The translations under genes were made by a program, and so were the position numbers. Below are positions 14,641-34,551 of a stretch of DNA of 34,551 nt, in pieces. The stretch spans positions 1 to 34,551 of the forward strand of contig PMZA01000005.1 of NCBI GenBank assembly GCA_003170595.1, in the 5' to 3' direction. The notes under the pieces were generated by a model. The model was not told the origin of the DNA, did no database searches, and was given only the letters and a program-made list of their open reading frames with translations. Position 1 is the first letter of the stretch. The number at the start of each line of letters is the position of its first letter. Source of the DNA: Armatimonadota bacterium (GTDB lineage: Bacteria > Armatimonadota > Zipacnadia > Zipacnadales > FEN-943).

Positions 14641-16668
14641 CTATTCGAAGTCCGGGCCCGAACTCTCCTCCAGTTGTATCGCCAGCGACAATTGTGCAGG
14701 ACACCCTCGGTGGTCCCCCGCTGCAAGCGGACATGGCTCTCCCTGAAGCCTAGCCAGTATGCAGCACGGCTCCGCTGCCTTGTGGAGAATGAGCAGCTTC
14801 TCTCTGGATCGTGAGCACCCGACCAACAGGAGATTGCGGATGGCTTCACAAGCGGTGCCGTCGGCGCTCGGCTTCAGGTGGCGGGTATCCAGGCTTGCGC
14901 CACAGACGAAGGTGTAGTCGAACTCCCTACCCTTCGCAGCGTGCATCGTTGCCAACGTGACCCATGAGCGGGTCCGTCTCCGTCGTTCTCTCGCCACCGC
15001 GCTCTCGACAGCCCTCCAGGCTGCCGCACTGACATCCTCAAGCGTCCCTCCCGGATTGCGCGTGACGAAGCCCTCCAGGTCCCCGGTCCATCGGGCAAGC
15101 GGCTCGTCGAGAAACGAATCGGATGTCCAGATGGATACGCCCCGGCGGCTGTTCATGGCCTTTCGGATACCGACAGCCGCGTCGCTGACAGCCCGCATGG
15201 CTTCGAAAGGGGCTAAGCCGCACGAGAGTGCCTCGCCAATGGTCTTGGCGACCTTCGCCTGTCTCTGCCCGTTCCCGCGTTTCAGAGGCTGGGCCGTCGA
15301 GCCGAACCAAGGCCCATGGGCATCCTTGACTGTTACACGGCGCATCTGTTCCAGCGCATCGCCGGCAAGATGTCTGGCCTCGTCGACGGACCTGAGTCCC
15401 AGGACACCCTCCATGAGATAAGCCAGCGCCGCCAGGAACACGCCGACCTCTTCTTCAAGGCCGACGATTGTGTGCCGCAGAGCTACCCCGCCATAGCCCT
15501 GCCTCAAGGCTTGGGAGACGGCTGCAAGCAACGCCCAGGTCGGGCATAGTAGCCCCACTCGCTTGCCGACTCCAAGCGCATCACGAATTTCGCCTTTCAT
15601 CCCGCTGACGTACGACACCGGCCACTCTCCATCAGCAGAACCCGGGTGCTCGCCGCGGGCCTCCTCTATCGACCGCACCTGGATGCACGCTCCAAGTGCA
15701 TCCAGCCCGGATGCCGGACCGGCCGTGCTGCAGGCCTGCCTGATGGCGTCAGCGACTGCCTTGAGGCCTGGGGACGCCTCAGTGCGGGGGACCTCGGGCA
15801 GACGGAACCCGTCAAGCACTTCGGGCTCTCGCTCGCTCTTCAGACGTGAGAGTCGGACCTCCGGATCCGCACCTCGCCACAGATAGACTGCCTGATCAGG
15901 ATCGCACATGCAGACGAGTGTCGAGTCGTGTGCCAAGGCCTTGATGAACTCCCATTCAACCCCGTTCGTGTCCTGAAACTCGTCAACGAAGATGAAAGGG
16001 TATCGTGCGCCCATGTGGCGGCGGACCTTGCTCGAACCGGTCAGTGTTAGGTGGGCGAAGTACGGCCAGCTGTCATAGTGAAGCAGGCCGTCGCGATGAT
16101 GCCTGCCCAGCGTGTCCGCCGCTGCCTGAAGTGTGTCGAAGGAGCAAGCACGAACCCGTTGACCGTCCATGAGTCCAGTCACGATGCTTGTGGCGTTAGC
16201 GGCCTCCCACTGCTTGGCGCGGTCCTTCTTTCCCCGCGCGTACGAGGCCTTGGTCTCGTCGTTGATTTGGCAGAGGGCAGCATCGACCTCGTGCGGTAGC
16301 CATGTCCGCCACCGCCTGGGCACCCCACAGTAGCGGACGTAGCCGTCCAAGAGCCGCCGATAAAGCGAGTGGTAGTTAAGGACCGCCACTTGTGATGTTC
16401 GGGCGCTGCTCTCCGTTCGGGCATCCCTGACCTGCAGGGCGAGTTGCTCAGCCGCACTGACGCTGAAGGTAAGCACAAGCGCGCTCTGTTCCGCAGGTAG
16501 ACGTTCCGCTGCCTCGAGGGCGAGTCTGGCCGTCAGCCAGGTCTTGCCAGAGCCGGGGCCGCCTTGGATGAGCACCGTGCGATGTCCCCGATCGAAGAGT
16601 GCCGAGCGGATATCACTGATTGCTTCCTCGTTCCATTTCTTGTTGGGAGATGACACTTGAGCCGTCAC
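14641..16668 (-). CDS. gajB-like: UvrD/Rep-like helicase, GajB-like (Gabija-type)
   Basis: Walker A VLIQGGPGSGKTWLTARLAL, FIFVDEFQDTNGVEW, DPDQAVYLWRGA, TLATMHAAKGREFDYTFV. GTG at 16668 forms a GTGA overlap with the upstream stop; the ORF-track extension to 16887 overlaps the nuclease gene. Confidence 0.85.
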   Translation of the reverse strand: MTAQVSSPNKKWNEEAISDIRSALFDRGHRTVLIQGGPGSGKTWLTARLALEAAERLPAEQSALVLTFSVSAAEQLALQVRDARTESSARTSQVAVLNYHSLYRRLLDGYVRYCGVPRRWRTWLPHEVDAALCQINDETKASYARGKKDRAKQWEAANATSIVTGLMDGQRVRACSFDTLQAAADTLGRHHRDGLLHYDSWPYFAHLTLTGSSKVRRHMGARYPFIFVDEFQDTNGVEWEFIKALAHDSTLVCMCDPDQAVYLWRGADPEVRLSRLKSEREPEVLDGFRLPEVPRTEASPGLKAVADAIRQACSTAGPASGLDALGACIQVRSIEEARGEHPGSADGEWPVSYVSGMKGEIRDALGVGKRVGLLCPTWALLAAVSQALRQGYGGVALRHTIVGLEEEVGVFLAALAYLMEGVLGLRSVDEARHLAGDALEQMRRVTVKDAHGPWFGSTAQPLKRGNGQRQAKVAKTIGEALSCGLAPFEAMRAVSDAAVGIRKAMNSRRGVSIWTSDSFLDEPLARWTGDLEGFVTRNPGGTLEDVSAAAWRAVESAVARERRRRTRSWVTLATMHAAKGREFDYTFVCGASLDTRHLKPSADGTACEAIRNLLLVGCSRSREKLLILHKAAEPCCILARLQGEPCPLAAGDHRGCPAQLSLAIQLEESSGPDFE

Positions 16669-18680
16669 CGAATCGAGAGCGAAATGATTTTCCTGCCCTC
16701 CGAGGCCGTCATACTGCAGGTAATGAAGCAATGAAGGTTCTCGAACAGGCAGCGGATGCCGGGAGGCACGCCGCCGGCGTCGACACAAGCTTGCGCCCAG
16801 ATCCTCCCGTACCTTGCGCTCTTGGCGAACACATGCTGATCGTCGGTGCCATCGCCCCGCTTGCCGCGACACCGATCGGCGAACCAATCACGAACGGCTT
16901 CGGAGACATCCTGACGTGCCTGGCCACATAAGTTCACCACGCATTCGATGACCGCACCGTCCGCTGCCTTCGATCCATCCGCTCCCGGCAAATGCTCCCC
17001 CAGATGCCTTGGAAGGCCCTTGCGTACCCATTCTCCGAACGAGCCGCCCTCCGGGGGAACGTAGATCTCAGACCAAGCCGTCAGCACTCGTCTGAGCACT
17101 TCCTCCGGCATAGCAACCGTCATCATGCCTTCGAAATCCCGGCCCGGATCCTCGTCGGGCCAATGCATGGCGAGGTCGGCGACGCGCTCGATCAATGCTT
17201 GCTGGTCCGCGTGTCGTCCGCCTTTGCCGCCTGCATTGGGGTCAAGATCGTAGAGCGCCACCACCTTGATGCCGTAACTCCGCAAGACCCGGGCGATAGG
17301 TGCAATGTCGGTGATGCCCCCGGCACTAATGAGCGCCACATCCGCGGCGTCAAGCCCGCGGTAGCTTCCGACCGTCTTGGCCGCCCAACAGTCAAATACC
17401 GGAAGAGCTCCGGCTTCGGTCGAGCCCTCGACCACTAGTGCTGCCCTGGCGAAGAGGGCCGACGAACAGACATCCCAGTAGCGTTGGGCGTTCTTTCTGA
17501 CCTGCTCCGCCTCCACGCAGCCCGCTTCAGAGGGAACCGTCCTCGCAGTCAACTCACCGTCTCGGTTGTCAATCCGCCATACCTCTTGGGGGCGGCAGGC
17601 TTGCACGATGTCCGCCGAGTGGGTGGCTATGAAAGCCTGGGGGCGGTCCGAGTCGATCCCTTCCGCCAGGCCATGGAGCATCGTTCGCTGCGCCTGGGCG
17701 TGGAGCCCGACCTCCGGTTCGTCGATCGTCAAGACCTGGGCACCCCGTACGCCTTCAGCTCCTGCCTTGATCTCGGCGAAGGCTGCCCGTGCCGCGATAG
17801 CGATGGCTCTCTGCATTCCAGCGCCTTGACGACTGAGCGGAATGCGTTGTCCCGACTCGCCAAAACCCAGCTCCATCATCCTCTGGGCCCAAGCCTCAGT
17901 GACTGCTGCGGTGATCCCAAGCTTGATGTCTCCCGCAGCTGAGGGCAAGAGCCGGCCAACTTGCTTGGAGATCTGCGACGCCAGCTCGTTCAGCCCATCT
18001 CCGGACCCGCTTCCGCTGGCGAACCCCTCGGCCTGGGCGACCAGGCTGTCGATGAAGGCAGGGATACGGTCCTCCCGGCGAGGGTCCCAACCAGCCGCCC
18101 GCGCAGCCCTCGCGAGCTGCGATCTGGTGGACAGGCTGCCCACCTCCCAGAGGGCTTCGTTGTATGGGGCGTCCCAGAAACCGAAGGCCTGCCGCTGTCG
18201 TTGAGCAACGCGCCTGCAGTCGGATTGGCCTGGTGGGTCGAACTTCGGAAAGAACCATACTGCGCGGTCCTCGGCCTCGGGCCGATCCGGCTGATAGAAG
18301 AGCGCCACTCGGAGAATGCAAGGGTCCTCATCCAAACCGGCAAGATCTGCGTCAGCCGGCCCCTCGGCCCAGGAGGGCAAGTCGGCGTATGGCTCCTCAA
18401 GTTCCGGGAACACGGCCCATTCCTGCTTAGACGGTTCGAGTATCGCGCCGATCTTCACAGTGAGGCCGCGCTCCCGCGTCAAGCCGTAGATGTCATAGCG
18501 GGTGAAGAGGTCCTCACCTCGATAGGCTTGCTCGACACCCAAGAGCAACTTGAGTCCCTCGAGAATGGTCGACTTTCCGGCGTTCGCACGTCCGACCAGC
18601 ACGTTCCGCTGCGGAGCCGGGTGCCAGGTGAACTGTTTGATACCTCGGAAGTTCTCGATGTCCAGCCTGAGGATACGCGT
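16665..18680 (-). CDS. gajA-like: OLD-family ATPase with TOPRIM nuclease, GajA-like (Gabija-type)
   Basis: Frame extends upstream of the track start: TRILRLDIENFRGIKQFTWHPAPQRN-VLVGRANAGKSTILEGLKLLLG. ABC-type signature-like LSRQGAGMQRAIAIA, Walker B VLTIDEPEVGLH, TOPRIM LVVEGSTEAGALPVF and ALYDLDP. Next gene is a UvrD-like helicase. Confidence 0.85.
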   Translation of the reverse strand, partial: TRILRLDIENFRGIKQFTWHPAPQRNVLVGRANAGKSTILEGLKLLLGVEQAYRGEDLFTRYDIYGLTRERGLTVKIGAILEPSKQEWAVFPELEEPYADLPSWAEGPADADLAGLDEDPCILRVALFYQPDRPEAEDRAVWFFPKFDPPGQSDCRRVAQRQRQAFGFWDAPYNEALWEVGSLSTRSQLARAARAAGWDPRREDRIPAFIDSLVAQAEGFASGSGSGDGLNELASQISKQVGRLLPSAAGDIKLGITAAVTEAWAQRMMELGFGESGQRIPLSRQGAGMQRAIAIAARAAFAEIKAGAEGVRGAQVLTIDEPEVGLHAQAQRTMLHGLAEGIDSDRPQAFIATHSADIVQACRPQEVWRIDNRDGELTARTVPSEAGCVEAEQVRKNAQRYWDVCSSALFARAALVVEGSTEAGALPVFDCWAAKTVGSYRGLDAADVALISAGGITDIAPIARVLRSYGIKVVALYDLDPNAGGKGGRHADQQALIERVADLAMHWPDEDPGRDFEGMMTVAMPEEVLRRVLTAWSEIYVPPEGGSFGEWVRKGLPRHLGEHLPGADGSKAADGAVIECVVNLCGQARQDVSEAVRDWFADRCRGKRGDGTDDQHVFAKSARYGRIWAQACVDAGGVPPGIRCLFENLHCFITCSMTASEGRKIISLSIR

Positions 18681-22525: not shown

Positions 22526-23107
22526 ATGCCGCATCCATCCGCGGACGATTCCCCCATCGTGAGCCGAGCGCGAGGCTGCCTCCTCGGGCAGCTGGCTGGC
22601 GATGCGCTGGGCGGCCTTGTGGAGTTCGAGACCCCCGGCCAGATCCGCCGCCGATACCCCCATGGCGTCCGGGAACTCCAAGACGGCGGGACATGGGGCA
22701 CGCTGGCCGGGCAGCCAACTGACGATTCGGAGATGGCTCTGGCCCTGGCTCGGACGCTGGTCGCCGACGGTCGGTCTGGCATTGAGAATGTCGCCAGGGC
22801 GTACGCCCGCTGGTACGAATCCGGCCCCTTCGACATGGGCGGCACCTGCCGGACCGCTCTGTCGGCAGCGACACGGTCCTTGAGGGAGGGAAGGTCTGCG
22901 TCGGAAAGGGCGCAGGCTTCGGCCAGCCGCGCCAGCCAGGCCAACGGCGCTCTCATGCGCATCAGCCCGCTGGCGATCTTCGCCGCCCGGTCCCCGAAAG
23001 AGGACGTCATGCTGTGGGCTCGGGACGACGCCTCCCAGCTCAGGCGAATCGATGGCCTCTTCGCCGTCCGTCAACCGGCAATTCTTGTTGTCGTCAGCGA
23101 CAACTAA
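22526..23107 (+). pseudogene. ADP-ribosylglycohydrolase (DraG-like), truncated at 3' end
   Basis: ARGCLLGQLAGDALGGLVEFETP...GTLAGQPTDDSEMALALARTL...GALMRISPLAIF are DraG-family motifs; the ORF ends after about 193 aa and its last residues lie in the ~25-bp repeat. Confidence 0.75.
23070..23095 (+). repeat. GTCAACCGGCAATTCYTGTTGTCGT repeat, copy c
   Basis: GTCAACCGGCAATTCTTGTTGTCGTC. Confidence 0.75.
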
Positions 23108-24776: not shown

Positions 24777-25109
24777 CTATGTGACCCCAAGTATCCACCC
24801 CTGCAGCTCCGCGGCTCTCCGTTGCTCGGAGGTCAGCGGCGGATCAAGGTACCGCCGGAGGTAGCTGATCGGGAAGCTGAACGCATGGTCGATGCCGGCG
24901 ATGAAGCATGTCCCGTCACGGGCCAACCCGATGAGCCAGTCGGCGATCTCGCTTCGGCACCAGTTCCAGTGCCTCTCCTCGGGCTGGGATGGCGTCGAGA
25001 CGCGTTCGGGCAGGCCCTCGCCGGCTCTGTAGACCTGGAGGCCCCTGAGCCGGGACGTCGGCGTCTCGGCCCCGCTGTAGTCGATGCCGACGTAGGTGGC
25101 GAAGGTCAT
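24777..25109 (-). CDS. DUF429/RNase H-fold-like protein, probably truncated
   Basis: TYVGIDYSGAETPTSRLRGLQVY and FIAGIDHAFSFPISYL; only 110 aa. Confidence 0.5.
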   Translation of the reverse strand: MTFATYVGIDYSGAETPTSRLRGLQVYRAGEGLPERVSTPSQPEERHWNWCRSEIADWLIGLARDGTCFIAGIDHAFSFPISYLRRYLDPPLTSEQRRAAELQGWILGVT

Positions 25110-25182: not shown

Positions 25183-26650
25183 TCAGTCCTCGCCCAGCAG
25201 CTCCCGCAGATCGGCTTGGAGGTACTCGTCGCTGGACAAGAAGAGCTCCCTCACCTCGTCGCTGATTGGCACCTCGTTGCGGTCTTCCGCCCCGCACCAC
25301 GCTCGGTACACTCCCGCCAGCCACAGATACGCATCCAGATCGCGGTCTGACAGGCACAGAGACATAAGCGAATAGGGCTATGCAGTTGACACAAGTAAAG
25401 GCAAGAGAGACGGCTTCATCAACAGCGTCCCAACCGCATGTGTCTCGGGAGTCATCGACCTCGCCTATCAGAAGGCGACCAAATGAGGCATCGGCTTGGG
25501 CAAGTGGGCACCTCAAGGGGCGATTAGGTGGCCGTCAAGCCTCGTGAAAGCGCCTTTCAAGCTACACGGCATCATATTAGCAGTCCTCGGCAACTTTGAT
25601 AGCCTGGGTTCCGCCAACACCTACTTAGGAGCTCAAATGACGGGCCCGTCGGGCCAAGGCCACCTACTTGTGTTAACTGCATAGCCCTATAAGCGAAAGG
25701 TATCTCGCCGCCCGAGCGAATGGAACATAGGAGACGTCTAGCTCCGCTCTGGTTCTGCCGAGATGGTGCCTCAAGGACTCGACGGCCCAGCTGTCATAGG
25801 TGGGCACGTACCCGATGGTCGGAACGTGGAGCTGCACGAATACCGACGCGAACTGGCGGAACTCCACCGACCGACCCGAGGGTCGGGATATGAGCTCGAC
25901 GAGGCGGATGGGGTCGTCCGGCGGATCCCGCAGGACCTCGTGGATATGCGTGGCCATCAGCCCGGTGTCTGGTAGTGGGCCCTCGCAGAGAGCCTTCGTA
26001 CCCTCTACAAGGGTCACGATACCCTCGTAGTCTCGCGGGGGGCCTGGATCACGGCCAGGCACGAGCACGGGGCCACTCTGAGCAAAGCGACTGGTCATCT
26101 GAGAGCATAGCCTCGACGCCGCTTCAACTTGGGTAAGCCATGGAGGAGTGAGCCCGAACGGCACCAAGTTTGGTGGCTGGCACATCCCGGCATCGCCAAG
26201 CTCGATCCTCTTCGATTGGGCCGCCACGCGGTCCTTGAGCCATCCTACGTCACCAACGCCCTCGAGAGCGCCCGCTATCGCGCCCGTTGCCGCCGACAGC
26301 GCGATGATGTTGAGGACCTTGGTGTTGATGGGGCCGCCCACGTCATCGACCGGATCCCCACAGCTGCATCTCCACACGATCAGTGTTTCGTCCTGCTCCG
26401 CGTCCTCGGAGAACGCAACCCGAGCCTCGAGATCGGGAAGCTCGAGTGCGAGCTGCCATTCGGCGGCTTCCGCCCATAGTTGGCGGAATGCTCCCCAGCA
26501 GAACGCGTCGGAAGCGCCACCGAAGATGCCGACAACGTCCGGAGGACAGTGGGGCAGGTAGACCTCCACGCCAACGACTTCGTGCCCGGCGTGGGGACCG
26601 CTTCCCTGTTCCCACTTCTTCTCGTCTGGAGCCCGTTTCTCGTCGGCCAT
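25183..26650 (-). pseudogene. Uncharacterised 380-aa protein gene interrupted by a MITE-like element
   Basis: The 325-aa ORF (26650-25673) reads into the element; the 60-aa ORF (25365-25183) continues on the other side. 26650-25690 (961 nt) plus 25364-25183 (182 nt) = 1143 nt = 381 codons in frame: ...FARAARYLSL|MSLCLSDRDLDAYLW...LLGED*. Confidence 0.85.
25373..25689. mobile_element. 317-bp MITE-like non-autonomous insertion element
   Basis: 25-bp TIRs TAGGGCTATGCAGTTGACACAAGTA (25373-25397) and, inverted, TAGGGCTATGCAGTTAACACAAGTA (25689-25665), one mismatch; 8-bp TSD TAAGCGAA at 25365-25372 and 25690-25697. Confidence 0.93.
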
Positions 26651-26704: not shown

Positions 26705-29700
26705 CTAACCATCTGACTGCCGCTTCCACGCCTCCAGGACGAGGCGGCGGGTGCGGTACTCGCCGAAGGCCTTCTCTTCCTTGTTCCTCAGCACCCGGAA
26801 GGTCTCGCCGGGGAAGTCGATGGCCGGCTCGGCCGGCAGCAGGTGCGGGCCCGAGCAGGTCGGGTCCTCCCAAGGGTCCAGGATGTCCGCCAGTTCCAGC
26901 TCGCTCAGGCCGTGCGGGTCCAGGATGTAGCGGAGTTGCTTGCGGTTCAGGCCGTACAGCCGGGCGTACCAGGCGTCCAACTCCGCCCGCAGCACCGCCC
27001 GGCGGTCGTCGCTCCACTTGAAGGGCGGCAGGGGGCAGCCATCGGCGGCGATCTCCGCCCACTCGGGCGGGTCCCAGGTATGCCCGCCGGTCTCGCCGCG
27101 GTTGGCCTCCCATTGCTGCTGCAGGGCCTGCCGCAGAGCGTCATCTCCCTCCCGCCATACGTCGTCGGCGAAGGCCTTGATGTCCCAGGCGGTGTAGGTC
27201 AGTTCGACCACGCGGGGGACGATGAAGAGCAGGTCGGCGGCGGCGTAGGCGTCAGGCGGGATGATGGGGAGTTGTCTCACGTAGAAGATGTTCATTGTGG
27301 CGGCTGCTAACTTGCCGCGAATGACGTAGTCCAGGATTAGGGAGTTGCAGTCACCGAGGAGGCATCCCACGAGTGGGGAGGGCCGATCCACCGCCATGAG
27401 AAGAGGGATTTTGTCTCCAATGGCAGCGATCGGCAGGACAGTGAACGTCGCCGTTCGTGCGAGAGACTTGCTTGTCACGCTTCGGAACCCAAGCAGCCAC
27501 GATCTGTCCCACCGGGGAGCGAGTACGTTCTGCACCTCGGAGTAGGAGACGTAGTAGCAGGCCAGTGGAATGTATGATGGGTCTTGGTGTTGGGATGCCG
27601 AGCAGTTTGGGAGCATGTGCGGTCTCTGACCGTTGCAGTCCTCGTACGAGGCGAACCGATGGTCGAATTGGTGCACCATCTTGCCTTCGTACAAGGGCAC
27701 CCAGTGCGTATTCCCATCCACGAAATGGGCTCCCATTCGCACGAAGCCCTCCCCCTGAAGTTCAGCCGGTGTCTTGAAGAGGTGGGAGGCGGTGTTCGTC
27801 ATGAACATCAGGAGAAATCTGGCACCCCAAGGGCTTACGCCCGTGACCTCGTTCTCCAGAACAGGCACACGCCGGTGCACCTCCATAGTCAAGTCGGCAT
27901 CTGGTCGGGTCCGGAACACAGGAGCCGTCTGCGTATTGGGATTGATGACGGCCAGGTCATCGCGAGTTAGGCGGAAATGGCGGATGGCCTGGCGTACGTC
28001 GCCAAAGGTCTGACACTCGTAGGCGAAGTCGGCATGCTCACTCTTGGCCTCGCGACCCGTCAGTGTGAGAGCACAGAACCGGAAGTTGTGGAGGACGTCT
28101 GCGAAGATCCGTTTTTCGTTGACGAATGCACACAGGGAAACAAGCGTGCCCGTCGCCATCAGGTCCTGGAAGAACGTCTTCGCAGTCTCGTCCGACGCTA
28201 CGCCAGGGGGAACGACAAGCCCGGCCCTGCCTTGCGGTGCCAACAGCATCCGTGCGAACTCGGCAAAAAGAGGAGCCAGGTTGGTTCGGCCTCCTTCGGT
28301 TAGCGGGAAGCGACCCGAGGCATGGACGAAGTTTTTCGCCTTGTCGCTCTCGCTTACGGCCAAGTGGTACTCCCTGAGTAGGTCCGGCCGGGATTCTGAC
28401 AACCGTTTGATGAGACGGGATCGCTGGGCCATATTGGCCGCCGCGGCCACGTCCGGAGAACGGTTAGCAAAGAACTCCTGCGGGTCAAGCTGCATCTGGT
28501 CCCACGGCGGATTGGAAAGCACGCAATCGAAGCCGCCCTGCTCGAACACCCCGGGGAACTCCAGCGGCCAATGGAAGAAGCGGTTGCGTTCGGCCAAGGC
28601 CCAGACGTGGTTCCGCATACGGGCATCCACGGCCTCCGGGCTCTGCATGTATCGACGCAGATCGTCAGTGGTGGGGATGCGGCGGCCCGCCTCTGCTTCG
28701 GGCGTCAGTTCGGCGAAGAACGCCGCCGTCCAGAGGTGACACGCCATTCGCTCTCGCCAGAGCGTGCTCCCCTCTTGCTGCAGCCGCTCGTAGGCCTCCC
28801 TCTTGCGGTGGATCTGGTCGGGCGTGTCATCGGCGAGGCCGTCCAGCTCCCGGCGTTCCTCAACCAGGCGATGCACCTCCGCGGTGGCGTCAGCCAGGGC
28901 GAGGCCGAGCTGGCTGCGTTCCTGCTTGTTCCGCTTCTTGATCGCTGACGCGAGCTTGCGGTCGTCGCCGGAAACGGCGTCGAAGGCGGCGTCGGGGATG
29001 CCATCGTCCAGCACGGCGAGGTCGAAGACGCCGACGAGGGAGTCGCCGCAGCGGATGCGGTGATCCAGGAAGGTGAGGGGCTTGCCGCCTGAGTGCCCCT
29101 CGATCCAGAGGGCGACCTTGCACAGGTCCACGGCGAGGGGGTTCTTGTCCACGCCGTAGATGCAGTGGGTGATGACATCCCGCACGGCGGCCCGCACAGC
29201 ATCGGGAGCGGGGGCCTCCTCGTCGGTGCGGACCTTCGCCAATTCGGTGCCGATCCTGCGAGCGGCGGCAAGGAGGAAGTGGCCGGAGCCGCAGGCCGGG
29301 TCGCAGACTCTCAGCGAGAGGAGGGCCTGCTCACGCTCGGGCGGCTTCGTCGCCTGGAGGCGATCCTCGATGACCGGAACGAGGGCGGACTTGACGAGTT
29401 CCGCGACCAACTCGGGGCGTGTGTAGTACGAGCCGGTGGTCTTGCGTTCGGTGCCGGCACCGAAGTGGAAAGTGAGCCGCCCGTCCTGGCCGTCAACGAT
29501 GGGCTGCAGGTCGAGCAGGGACTCATAGACGCTGCCCAGCTCCTCGACGTCGAGGTGGCGATAGTTGACGCGGGTCGGCACCCGCTGGTCGCGGGGCACG
29601 AACCACGATAGGGTGTGCATCGCGGTGAGCAGGTCGCGGTTGTTGAGGTAGGCGTCGCCGAGGGCGGAAGTGCGGGCACAGTCGAACAACTCGCCGTTGA

Positions 29701-30778
29701 GCGGCGGGAGGCCGAGAGCCTCGGCGAACTCCTCCTTGCAGAGCGAGAAGAACAGAGCCCGCAGGTTGCGGTAGAGATCGCAGAAGCGTTCCGGGGCACT
29801 GAGCGGCTCGTCGGCGAGGGCACGGAGCCGCTGGACCGTGAAGTAGTCGCGTGCGGAGTGATCCTGACCGTCGCCCCCGCGGAGCAGTCCCCGCTCCTCC
29901 GCCACCATCAGGAATAGCAGGCGGTAGATGAGGTACAGGAGCTGCTGGTAGAACCCCACGGGAGTGAGCCGGCCGGAGCGGAGGGCCTCCCGGAGGTCCT
30001 CGTTCTTCGCATGGGCGAGGAAGCCGTTGGCGAAGATGGAGATGGCCTGCTCGACGGCACCGCGGAGGCCGTCGCGGATCCGGCCGCCCTGATCGATGCC
30101 GATCTGGTGGTACTTCTCCAGCAGGCAGGTGTCCCCGTCATCCATCGCCTTCGGCATGCGGGTGCGATGGACGAGGCGGTAGAAGAGGAAGAACTCGTCC
30201 AGCCGCTCGCCCTCGAGCATCTGCTGGAGATCGAACTCGATGAAGGCCGGACGAGTGAAGTAGGACGAGTCGCGGAGCAGGCGGAGGGTGTTGCCGTTGG
30301 TGACGATGGCCCAGAGGTGGTCGGTGCGGTTGAGATAGTCCTGCATCATCGCGTGCGGCGACATGTTGCCGCGGCCCGAGGGCGGGCGGGAGCCGAGGTC
30401 CTGGTCGAAGGGCTCGATCTGGACGGGGAGGTCTTCGTCGGTCTCGCCAGTGCGGTGGCTGATGCGGTAGAGGCGACCCTCGACATCGACGCTCTGCGGC
30501 TGGTAGGCCAGCCGGTAGCCGAGAGCATCGAGCAAGGGGATGACCCACTGCTCGCGGGTGATGGTGGTAACGCTCTCGCTGGACGACCGCTGGAGGCGAC
30601 GCTGGAAGGCATCCCAGTAGGAGCGGACATCTGACCAAAGCGACGAGACCTCGTCCACCAGTGTGCGGCGACCCTCGATCCCGAAGTCGGAGGGCTTCTG
30701 GCCCTCGGCGTCAGCGATGGTCTCCAGGAAGTCCGGGGCGAGCAGGCCGCCCTCGATCTTGATGCAGGTGGAGTTCAC
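26705..30778 (-). CDS. drmMI-like: Large N6-adenine DNA methyltransferase, DISARM DrmMI-like
   Basis: TGSYYTRPELVAELVKSAL, VCDPACGSGHFLLAAARR, DCVLSNPPWDQMQ. GTG at 30778 overlaps the upstream stop (GTGA); the ORF-track start 30958 is within the helicase gene. Confidence 0.85.
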   Translation of the reverse strand: MNSTCIKIEGGLLAPDFLETIADAEGQKPSDFGIEGRRTLVDEVSSLWSDVRSYWDAFQRRLQRSSSESVTTITREQWVIPLLDALGYRLAYQPQSVDVEGRLYRISHRTGETDEDLPVQIEPFDQDLGSRPPSGRGNMSPHAMMQDYLNRTDHLWAIVTNGNTLRLLRDSSYFTRPAFIEFDLQQMLEGERLDEFFLFYRLVHRTRMPKAMDDGDTCLLEKYHQIGIDQGGRIRDGLRGAVEQAISIFANGFLAHAKNEDLREALRSGRLTPVGFYQQLLYLIYRLLFLMVAEERGLLRGGDGQDHSARDYFTVQRLRALADEPLSAPERFCDLYRNLRALFFSLCKEEFAEALGLPPLNGELFDCARTSALGDAYLNNRDLLTAMHTLSWFVPRDQRVPTRVNYRHLDVEELGSVYESLLDLQPIVDGQDGRLTFHFGAGTERKTTGSYYTRPELVAELVKSALVPVIEDRLQATKPPEREQALLSLRVCDPACGSGHFLLAAARRIGTELAKVRTDEEAPAPDAVRAAVRDVITHCIYGVDKNPLAVDLCKVALWIEGHSGGKPLTFLDHRIRCGDSLVGVFDLAVLDDGIPDAAFDAVSGDDRKLASAIKKRNKQERSQLGLALADATAEVHRLVEERRELDGLADDTPDQIHRKREAYERLQQEGSTLWRERMACHLWTAAFFAELTPEAEAGRRIPTTDDLRRYMQSPEAVDARMRNHVWALAERNRFFHWPLEFPGVFEQGGFDCVLSNPPWDQMQLDPQEFFANRSPDVAAAANMAQRSRLIKRLSESRPDLLREYHLAVSESDKAKNFVHASGRFPLTEGGRTNLAPLFAEFARMLLAPQGRAGLVVPPGVASDETAKTFFQDLMATGTLVSLCAFVNEKRIFADVLHNFRFCALTLTGREAKSEHADFAYECQTFGDVRQAIRHFRLTRDDLAVINPNTQTAPVFRTRPDADLTMEVHRRVPVLENEVTGVSPWGARFLLMFMTNTASHLFKTPAELQGEGFVRMGAHFVDGNTHWVPLYEGKMVHQFDHRFASYEDCNGQRPHMLPNCSASQHQDPSYIPLACYYVSYSEVQNVLAPRWDRSWLLGFRSVTSKSLARTATFTVLPIAAIGDKIPLLMAVDRPSPLVGCLLGDCNSLILDYVIRGKLAAATMNIFYVRQLPIIPPDAYAAADLLFIVPRVVELTYTAWDIKAFADDVWREGDDALRQALQQQWEANRGETGGHTWDPPEWAEIAADGCPLPPFKWSDDRRAVLRAELDAWYARLYGLNRKQLRYILDPHGLSELELADILDPWEDPTCSGPHLLPAEPAIDFPGETFRVLRNKEEKAFGEYRTRRLVLEAWKRQSDG

Positions 30779-33702
30779 TGGGCCGCCCCCTTCGGCACTG
30801 GCACCAGCACCAGTACGCCGAGGAGGTCGGGCGGCTTCTGTGGCTCGATGCGTACATGCCCGGCCTTGGTGAGGCTGCGGATGCGGCGGTGAGATTCGGT
30901 GAGCCGTCGGGCCCGCTCGTCGAGCACGGCCGAGAGCTGCTTCTGCAACGGCTCCCACCCGGCGAGCATCTCGGCGACGACCTCGGTCTTCTCCTGGGCG
31001 GAGAGGTTCCCAACTGGGGCCGCCTCATCCACCAGCTTCTTGGCGTCGTCGAGGGAAATCGGCTCGATGTCAGGCAGGAGGCCACGGTATCCCCAGACGA
31101 GGGTCTCCTCGGCCAGGCTGGGCGTCTCTTCGTCCCGCTCGTGGATCAGGTAGCGTAGGCGAAGCAGGAGCAGCGTGGTCCGCCGGGTGACGGCGTCGGT
31201 GCGGATGGCTCCGCAACGTGCCGCCGCCGACTGGTCGGAAGATGGGTAGAAGGCCAGGTCCATGAGATGCTCGGCCAGGCACTCGATGAGACGATGGCTG
31301 CGTCCGACGTAGGCGACGCCCTCGGGGACGGGCGTGTCGAAGGTGATGGGCCACGGATCGGGCACGTTGCCGAGAGCCTGCCTCACCGCTGGCGGCAGGG
31401 GGGCGATGTCGATCTCCCAGACCTCGGGGCCGGTCTTGCGAGAACGGCTGCTCCGGCGGAAGCCGAACGTCAGCCGCTGGCTGGCCTCGAGTAGGAAGCT
31501 TCGGACCTCCTCCGGGTCACCCAGGACTCCGTCGGTCTCGGACAACTCTCGCTGCACTTCGTCGGGCTTGATGCTGCGTTGGGCGAAGCGGGAGCGTGTC
31601 TCCTTCTCCCGCTCGGCGGCCAGGTCCATCTGGTAGTGGAAACTGCGGACGACCTCGGACGCCATGTCGGACCGGTCGAAGAGCGAGAGCTGTCGCTTGC
31701 CCTCGTAGGACCGGGCGAAGACGGACTTGAGGACCGTCTCCATGACGGTCTCGCTGTCGACGGGGACCGGGACATAGATGCCCAGGGCTTTGTGGATCTC
31801 GCGGGCCTTGCGGATCAGGACGTCGAGAACCGCCCCGTCCACCGGGTTGTCCTGGCCGTAGATGAGCACGGTGCGGACGGTGGGCGAGTTCTGGCCGAAG
31901 CGGTCGACGCGGCCCTCCCGCTGTTCGAGGCGGTTGGGGTTCCAGGGCAGGTCATAGTGGAGGACGGCGTTGAAGTGCTCCTGGAGGTTGACGCCCTCGC
32001 TCAGGCAGTCGGTGGCCACCAGGACACGCCTCGGGGCCTTCGCGAGTTCTGCGAGCTTCAGACGCCGCTCGTCTTCGCCGACGGTGCCGTTGATGGACGT
32101 CACCCGGAGGTCTCGGAACTTCTTGCCCAGGGCACCCTGGAGTTCCTCCGCGACATAGTCGCTGGTCGCTATGTATCTACACCAGACGATGGGATGGTAG
32201 CCGTCACGCAGGCAGGCTCTGACAGCCTCGGCTGCGGCTTGGAGCTTGGCATCGTGTCTCCCCCGCAGCTCGCCCGCACGCTTGGCGAAGGCTCTCATCC
32301 GGCGACGGTCGGCATCGGGCCAGGATGAATCCATCTCCTGAGCGTCGAAGATCGCCGTAGGAGGGGCGTCAGCCGATGGCCCCGCATCGGTGGAGTCGTA
32401 GAGGGCGGGCTCGAAGGTCGCTTCGAGTTCGTCCTCGGTGGATGCGTCAAGGGCTTCGGTGGAGAAGCCCTCGTCTCCGCCCAGTCGTCGGAGCAGGCTG
32501 GCCTCCGCGGCGGCCGGCGATGAGGTCACGCACCGCATGAGGGCGAGGGCGGACCAGAAACGCATCCTTCGCTTCCAGCCTTTGAGCGTCTCCGCGGAGT
32601 CAACGAGGCCGCGGGCGAAGTCGTACACGTCGGAGTAGAAGCTACGGTAGGCGTCGGAAAACGAGTACGGGTACTCGCCGGACGGTGCGGGCCACGGGTC
32701 CCGCTCGGGGAAGGGCGTGTCCTCTCCCATCCACCGCTTCACGTCGGGTCGCCGACGCTGGACGAAGTGCTTCGACAACTCGTCCCGTTCGTCGTCGGAC
32801 AGCTCAGCCAGGTTCAGGTCAGCAAACTCCGGTCGTAGCAGCCCGAGCAGGGAGAGGAACGACTCCTCGACACCGCTGTGCGGCGTGGCGGTGAGAAGCA
32901 CGAGGTGGCGGTTCGGGTCACTGGCAACTTGGCACACCAGATCGTGCCTTTGCTGCTGAGAGCGTGCCCGTCGATCGCCCGGCGGCCGGGCGGCCCCGTG
33001 GGCCTCGTCGACTATCACGAAGTCGGGGCAGTGCAACAGAAACGTCTCACGGTATCGCTCGCTCTTGATGGTGTCGATGCTGGCCACGAAGTGCCGGTGT
33101 TGCTGGAAGATGCTGCGGTCGGCCGGGCAAAGGCGTTCAAGTCTGGCGACGGTCCCCGAGCGGATGACTTCAGCCTCCATCTGGGCCTTCTCTGCGAGTT
33201 CCCGCTGCCACTGATCGCAGAGGTAGGGGGGACAAAGAACGGCGAGTCGCCGTACCTCTCCACGGGCCATCAACTCACGGCCGAGCAATATCCCTTCGAG
33301 GGATTTGCCTACTCCGACATCGTCCGCCACCAGCAGTCGAGCGGTATCCTGCCGGAGCCCCATGAGCATCGGGACGTATTGGTACGGGCGGGGTCTGACG
33401 GACAGATGGCCCAGCGACCTGAAGGGTGTCGCCCCATCCCGCAGGAGCAGACGGGCGGCCTCCAGCAGCAACTTGACGGCGGCGTGGTCCTGCACCGCAC
33501 TGGCGTCTGGTGCCCTGAACTGCGTCTGTTCGACCCGCTCGAAGAACAAGCTGTAGGCCATCGTGTCGGCGAGCGACCGCAGGACGCCGCAGACCTCCCT
33601 GGCACTGCCCCCGATCGGGCGGAGCATCATGAGCCCGGGCTCCTCCGATGGCAGGACAACCCAGTCCCGTTCGCGGTACCGCACCAGCGTGCCGGGGTTC
33701 AA
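30775..33702 (-). CDS. drmD-like: SNF2-like helicase, DISARM DrmD-like
   Basis: LLVADDVGVGKSLEGILLGREL, FVIVDEAHGAARP, LLTATPHSG, ATDCLSEGVNLQEHFNAVLHYDLPWNPNRLEQREGRVDRFGQ. TTG start with TTGA overlap to the upstream stop. Confidence 0.9.
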   Translation of the reverse strand: MNPGTLVRYRERDWVVLPSEEPGLMMLRPIGGSAREVCGVLRSLADTMAYSLFFERVEQTQFRAPDASAVQDHAAVKLLLEAARLLLRDGATPFRSLGHLSVRPRPYQYVPMLMGLRQDTARLLVADDVGVGKSLEGILLGRELMARGEVRRLAVLCPPYLCDQWQRELAEKAQMEAEVIRSGTVARLERLCPADRSIFQQHRHFVASIDTIKSERYRETFLLHCPDFVIVDEAHGAARPPGDRRARSQQQRHDLVCQVASDPNRHLVLLTATPHSGVEESFLSLLGLLRPEFADLNLAELSDDERDELSKHFVQRRRPDVKRWMGEDTPFPERDPWPAPSGEYPYSFSDAYRSFYSDVYDFARGLVDSAETLKGWKRRMRFWSALALMRCVTSSPAAAEASLLRRLGGDEGFSTEALDASTEDELEATFEPALYDSTDAGPSADAPPTAIFDAQEMDSSWPDADRRRMRAFAKRAGELRGRHDAKLQAAAEAVRACLRDGYHPIVWCRYIATSDYVAEELQGALGKKFRDLRVTSINGTVGEDERRLKLAELAKAPRRVLVATDCLSEGVNLQEHFNAVLHYDLPWNPNRLEQREGRVDRFGQNSPTVRTVLIYGQDNPVDGAVLDVLIRKAREIHKALGIYVPVPVDSETVMETVLKSVFARSYEGKRQLSLFDRSDMASEVVRSFHYQMDLAAEREKETRSRFAQRSIKPDEVQRELSETDGVLGDPEEVRSFLLEASQRLTFGFRRSSRSRKTGPEVWEIDIAPLPPAVRQALGNVPDPWPITFDTPVPEGVAYVGRSHRLIECLAEHLMDLAFYPSSDQSAAARCGAIRTDAVTRRTTLLLLRLRYLIHERDEETPSLAEETLVWGYRGLLPDIEPISLDDAKKLVDEAAPVGNLSAQEKTEVVAEMLAGWEPLQKQLSAVLDERARRLTESHRRIRSLTKAGHVRIEPQKPPDLLGVLVLVPVPKGAAQ

Positions 33703-34551
33703 GGCCGCACCCCCTCACCGAAGACATCGGGATGCTCAGCGATCTGCTCCTCGAGGCCCCGGTCGTAGCGGATCGTGATGACCCGATATCCGAGTTCCCG
33801 CAGTCTGCGTCGGGCTGCCTCGTCCCTCCCTTGCTGTTGAGGCTGATCGTGCACACTCCCGTCGCAGAACACGCAGACGTGCAGGCCTTCGTAAGCGAAG
33901 TCCGGCGTGCACTCGGCTTCGGGCACGTGCATCTGAGCGTGCGAAGGCAGGCTCCGTCGAGTGCGGTAGAGGTGGTCGATGAACTGCCTCTCAAGGGCCG
34001 ATCGAGAGTCCGTCTCGCTCATCAGCCACTGACACTGCTCGTCGTAGGAGCGTCCGGCTATCTCGACCCGGACCCGCCCGCCCTTCAGGCTTAGCAGAAG
34101 GTCCCGCACGAGGTGTCTATCGAGGAGTCTGTGGTGTCTTTGGTTGTAGTAGGAGAGCAGGCAGTCATAGCAGGCCCTGGCACAGCCGTGCACCTCGTCC
34201 TCGGGCGGCCGCATGTCCTCGCCCGTGTCCGGGTCGAAGTGCATGATCTCCAGGGCCAGCGATGCGACGCCCGAGAGGGCGTCCGGCTCGTCCACCAGAC
34301 GCCTGAGCACTCCCAGCCCTCCCTCGGCCGCTTCCCATATCAGGATTCGACGCCCCAGTCCCTCCCCGATGACTTCCGAGCCCAGCTCGGACGACTCCAC
34401 CTGGTACCGGGCAGCGACCCCGGCGACGAGGGCGTACTGAAGCGTGTAGACGAAGGAGTTGGTGGTCGCCTCGTCATCCGGGTCTCCGATGTCGGGGTGC
34501 ACGAGGACGGCGTTCGAGGTGTTCCTGACGAACAGCCGTACATAGTGGCGG
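33699..34551 (-). CDS. drmB-like: DUF1998 domain plus DUF559/Vsr-like nuclease domain, C-terminal part of DrmB-like protein (5' end outside window)
   Basis: TLQYALVAGVAARYQVESSELGSEVIG...CARACYDCLLSYYNQRHHRLLDR (DUF1998) then CTPDFAYEGLHVCVFCDGSVHDQPQQQGRDEAARRRLRELGYRVITIRYD. Frame stays open to the window edge (RHYVRLFVRNTSNAVLVHPDIGD). Confidence 0.82.
   Translation of the reverse strand, partial: RHYVRLFVRNTSNAVLVHPDIGDPDDEATTNSFVYTLQYALVAGVAARYQVESSELGSEVIGEGLGRRILIWEAAEGGLGVLRRLVDEPDALSGVASLALEIMHFDPDTGEDMRPPEDEVHGCARACYDCLLSYYNQRHHRLLDRHLVRDLLLSLKGGRVRVEIAGRSYDEQCQWLMSETDSRSALERQFIDHLYRTRRSLPSHAQMHVPEAECTPDFAYEGLHVCVFCDGSVHDQPQQQGRDEAARRRLRELGYRVITIRYDRGLEEQIAEHPDVFGEGVRP

Follow-up and report, generated by a model that had tools for sequence, protein, structure and literature searches.

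Transposition by elements of the IS1595 family typically duplicates 8 bp of the target. DISARM defence systems are built on a core of the DrmA helicase and DrmB (DUF1998), together with a methyltransferase, DrmMI and/or DrmMII (PMC9142583). Both kinds of system bear on the window, by which we mean the whole 34,551-nucleotide stretch of Armatimonadota DNA analysed here. Downstream of a DrmMI-like methyltransferase gene, a 380-codon gene is split by a MITE with IS1595-type ends. Our reading, held with considerable confidence, is that the MITE was probably mobilised in trans by a transposase of a clade seen in another genome, that of Candidatus Zipacnadia G020, and that its insertion is expected to truncate the encoded protein to 325 residues. 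The features are collected in Table 1.

Table 1 Features of the MITE, the interrupted gene and the adjoining DISARM-like genes in the window.
Feature	Position	Strand	Basis
3' part of interrupted gene, last 60 codons + stop, with conserved D-x-Y-x-W-x-x-G motif	25183..25364	-	rejoined frame, homologs
Target-site duplication copy 1, TAAGCGAA	25365..25372		sequence
317-bp MITE (non-autonomous IS1595-type element)	25373..25689		repeats, duplication, further copies
Left terminal inverted repeat, TAGGGCTATGCAGTTGACACAAGTA	25373..25397	+	sequence
Right terminal inverted repeat, TAGGGCTATGCAGTTAACACAAGTA (read on -)	25665..25689	-	sequence
Target-site duplication copy 2, TAAGCGAA	25690..25697		sequence
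325-aa truncated ORF, MITE-encoded tail IGLCS	25673..26650	-	ORF list
5' part of interrupted gene, codons 1-320 + first base of 321	25690..26650	-	rejoined frame, homologs
DrmMI-like / type IIG-like adenine methyltransferase gene, upstream of interrupted gene	26705..30958	-	Pfam/PADLOC matches
SNF2-type helicase gene	30775..33702	-	PADLOC best DpdE (618 bits), then DrmD (274 bits)
MZB-domain protein, C-terminal part, cut by window end	33699..34550	-	profile matches

The original prediction described 25-bp terminal inverted repeats that differ at one base and an error-free target-site duplication of 8 bp, and both were confirmed (24/25 and 8/8 bases matched, respectively). The element encodes no transposase; all six of its reading frames are broken or short, leaving it with no long frame of its own. 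Its GC content is 55%, compared with 63% in the flanks. The single-stranded element folds well, mostly through its end repeats, and scans of it for promoters, terminators and Rfam families returned no match. Comparison of 12 flanks gave a target consensus of approximately TWGCNNWW. Being short, bounded by inverted repeats and a duplication, devoid of an encoded transposase and present more than once in the genome, the element has the hallmarks of a MITE.

Joining the two flanks (961 + 182 nt) gave 381 codons including the stop, and thus the 380-residue protein that had been predicted. The present frame enters the MITE for five codons and then stops, producing the 325-residue ORF ending in IGLCS, likewise as predicted. 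The rejoined protein found matches in 12 of 101 genomes searched, the host counted; the host paralog, on contig C5, has 482 residues. In the 13 homologous frames that were recovered, reading continues without a break past the position of the insertion (residue 320). These homologs are therefore not naturally split at the site, as they would be if the gap were not due to an insertion. Pfam and PADLOC gave no name to the interrupted protein itself, the sole Pfam result being DUF7669 in 4 of the 12 family members, and a search of solved structures with the family profile returned no match. The protein is a member of an unnamed family. Family alignment identified D331, Y333, W335, G338 and F362 as invariant, all of them past the insertion. 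Because truncation removes these residues, the insertion likely results in loss of function, and a working truncated protein appears unlikely.

The host assembly (G000; 553 contigs totalling 6.45 Mb, completeness 84.5%, contamination 5.21%) is broken at repeats. The 25-mer MITE end has six exact occurrences in it, compared with none for the reversed control. Contig C160 carries both MITE halves in order with a long stretch between them, the right end is also present on contigs C401, C209 and C534, and further contigs start or stop within the outer 17–22 bases of the MITE repeat. After removal of the intervening stretch and one duplication copy, the C160 copy is identical to the window MITE over 315/315 bases, the contig stopping 2 bases short of the MITE outer end. 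The repeated occurrence of the 25-mer and this identical second copy indicate that the MITE is not a chance feature. Comparison of the first 8 bases of the outward flanks paired C1/C489, C522/C401 and C500/C168 as three extra sites with matching 8-bp duplications, and the joined C500/C168 flanks encode an 842-codon open frame across the insertion site. Both repeat ends at C500/C168 are of the G-type (left). The lack of other genomic copies, which the original prediction had named as evidence against itself, was therefore not borne out, and its claim of a recent MITE insertion gains support from the repeats, the duplication, the rejoined frame and the identical copy. Among the relatives searched, there was no same-genus genome for an empty-site comparison.

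An exact scan for the repeat across 85,462 species genomes returned one record outside the host genome, a Candidatus Zipacnadia MAG, in agreement with the repeat found at G020:C541 in our genome search. At this locus the repeat (24/25) is followed by AGGTGGC, as at the MITE right end, and directly abuts an IS1595-family transposase gene (NF033547); this gene is truncated, and one end only is visible. This match indicates that the MITE is IS1595-derived. Related transposases in G013 and G036 sit between inverted repeats of similar type. The 8-bp duplication, an IS1595-family trait, is present at the window site, at the three flank pairs and around the IS1595 element of G036. Matches at transposase flanks were scored with 500 shuffled repeats as the control. 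The MITE end was distinct from this control at G020 and G041, weakly so at G036 (p=0.02) and not at G013 (p=0.10), and the flanks of transposases of the type nested in C160 (n=14) gave nothing clear, with the lowest value at L106 (p=0.05).

No transposase of the matching clade was found in the 84.5% complete host assembly at E<=1e-20, which is why we infer rather than observe mobilisation in trans. Two host transposases were recovered, the nested one and one on contig C54 (~40% identity). The C54 enzyme was considered as the mobiliser and rejected, as the MITE repeat scored no higher at its flanks than shuffled versions did. No MITE repeat was detected in the viral contigs or plasmids searched. 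The proposed search for an autonomous parent thus arrived at a clade of IS1595-family transposases carried by a relative, with no intact parent found in this incomplete genome.

A 54-bp gap separates the start of the interrupted gene from the DrmMI-like gene upstream, whose ORF is tabulated as listed and whose true start is probably nearer 30775. The encoded protein matches the DrmMI profile PDLC02643 with 276 bits (best stretch, residues 499–819), as expected of a DISARM-type methyltransferase. The only trace of a possible core in the window is the C-terminal part of the MZB-domain protein at the contig end; DrmA and DrmC are not visible because the contig ends. The spacing had suggested an accessory component of DISARM. 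In keeping with this idea, a 25-residue DrmMI tail fragment precedes a homolog of the interrupted gene at G020:C271; at a contig edge in G009, DrmMI is followed by a stretch that the profile matches over the N-terminal region of the family. In G035, a 111-residue DrmMI tail lies ~3.3 kb upstream of a homolog. Against it, the family profile found nothing in the 17 remaining stretches, which come from the phylum, start at DrmMI-like genes and extend downstream, and are mostly 4.5–5.5 kb long, two being only ~0.9 and 1.3 kb. Other homologs occur in mixed contexts, some of them defence-like, as beside a Zac-type pair (PADLOC ZacA, ZacB) at G020:C241. Since few related DrmMI-like genes have the family downstream, the link to DISARM is weak, and the association with DrmMI would be facultative at best. 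A further reading is that the family serves Armatimonadota DISARM-like systems as a facultative accessory associated with DrmMI and is here switched off by a possibly excisable MITE, with defence gene content varying by transposition within the population; this is very unlikely.

Several other genes in the window are of defence type or incomplete. A Gabija-like pair occupies 14641–18602 on the minus strand (OLD/GajA-like, 16665–18602; UvrD/GajB-like, 14641–16887), and the 1143-aa product of 19009–22440 matches a Dsr1-like profile in PADLOC (78 bits). The ADP-ribosylglycohydrolase at 22526–23107 covers only positions 1–151 of the 287-position Pfam profile and is apparently truncated. After the interrupted gene, the gene at 24777–25109, which has no Pfam match and which we presume to be DUF429-like, shows a clean in-frame internal deletion of ~146 aa relative to its homolog in G020:C241 (L071 6278–7048). 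This loss gives the tail of the region a decayed appearance.

The C160 copy raises the question of how the MITE arose. Its two halves border the 4.4-kb stretch in order and overlap by 9 bp, which would fit a MITE formed as an internal-deletion derivative of the 4.7-kb C160 element by recombination between two 9-bp ATTAGGTGG repeats. However, the 4,397 bp in question (L036 4200–8596, equivalent to G000:C160:10199–14595) start with GGTAATAATATACTTGACACACCATGC and end with its imperfect inverse; these inverted repeats begin with GG, ~24 of their first 30 bases matching. Eight bases of MITE sequence, ATTAGGTG, are duplicated exactly on either side of the stretch, which encodes its own IS1595-family transposase; these features are the signature of an insertion into the MITE. 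Moreover, this transposase belongs to a different clade from the one whose ends match the MITE. The deletion origin is thus very unlikely, and the C160 stretch was rejected as the MITE parent; it represents a separate transposon that lies within another copy of the MITE. As cargo it carries a Panacea-domain protein followed by a 99-aa frame, together with an EcoRI-type methylase (PF13651), which PADLOC classes as a type II methyltransferase, and a GmrSD_N-HNH protein, which PADLOC classes as a type II restriction enzyme (440 bits).

An assembly artefact or strain mixture could also have placed the MITE in the gene, given the fragmentation and contamination of the assembly and the breaks of other MITE copies at contig ends. 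We regard this as barely credible, because one contig holds both flanks, the perfect 8-bp duplication and the restored frame, which a chance chimera would not give. Exact removal of the MITE and one duplication copy restores the frame, as a reversible switch would need if precise excision were to reactivate the gene in part of the population; yet the same is true wherever an element has inserted into a gene and duplicated its target, and the DUF429-like gene alongside carries damage too, suggesting decay, so a switch is highly improbable. In the reading we prefer, a transposase of the G020-type IS1595 clade would have mobilised the MITE in trans into an 8-bp A/T-edged target in the 3' part of the 380-codon gene, duplicating the target. 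The frame now stops five codons into the MITE, the expected 325-residue product lacks the conserved C-terminal motif, and loss of function would probably follow.

Our results document recent activity of IS1595-type elements in the poorly known phylum Armatimonadota and show one disrupting a defence-island gene. The interest of the case lies mostly in the sister copy, which was hit by a second IS1595 transposon bearing a restriction-modification pair and a Panacea-domain protein, that is, a small transposon carrying defence genes. Compared with class 1 DISARM, the window similarly has a DrmMI-like methyltransferase gene adjoining one for a DrmD-like helicase, and upstream of these it encodes an MZB-domain protein, but its helicase is closest to DpdE rather than DrmD; the interrupted gene, which has no PADLOC match, is not a defining component of that class. 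The event itself, the insertion of an IS1595-type MITE, is ordinary and well documented here. Although its sequence is new to the collections searched, the window element resembles known IS1595-family MITEs and transporter ISs in that its terminal repeat has a counterpart next to an IS1595 transposase gene of a relative, in its 8-bp duplication and in having no internal transposase.
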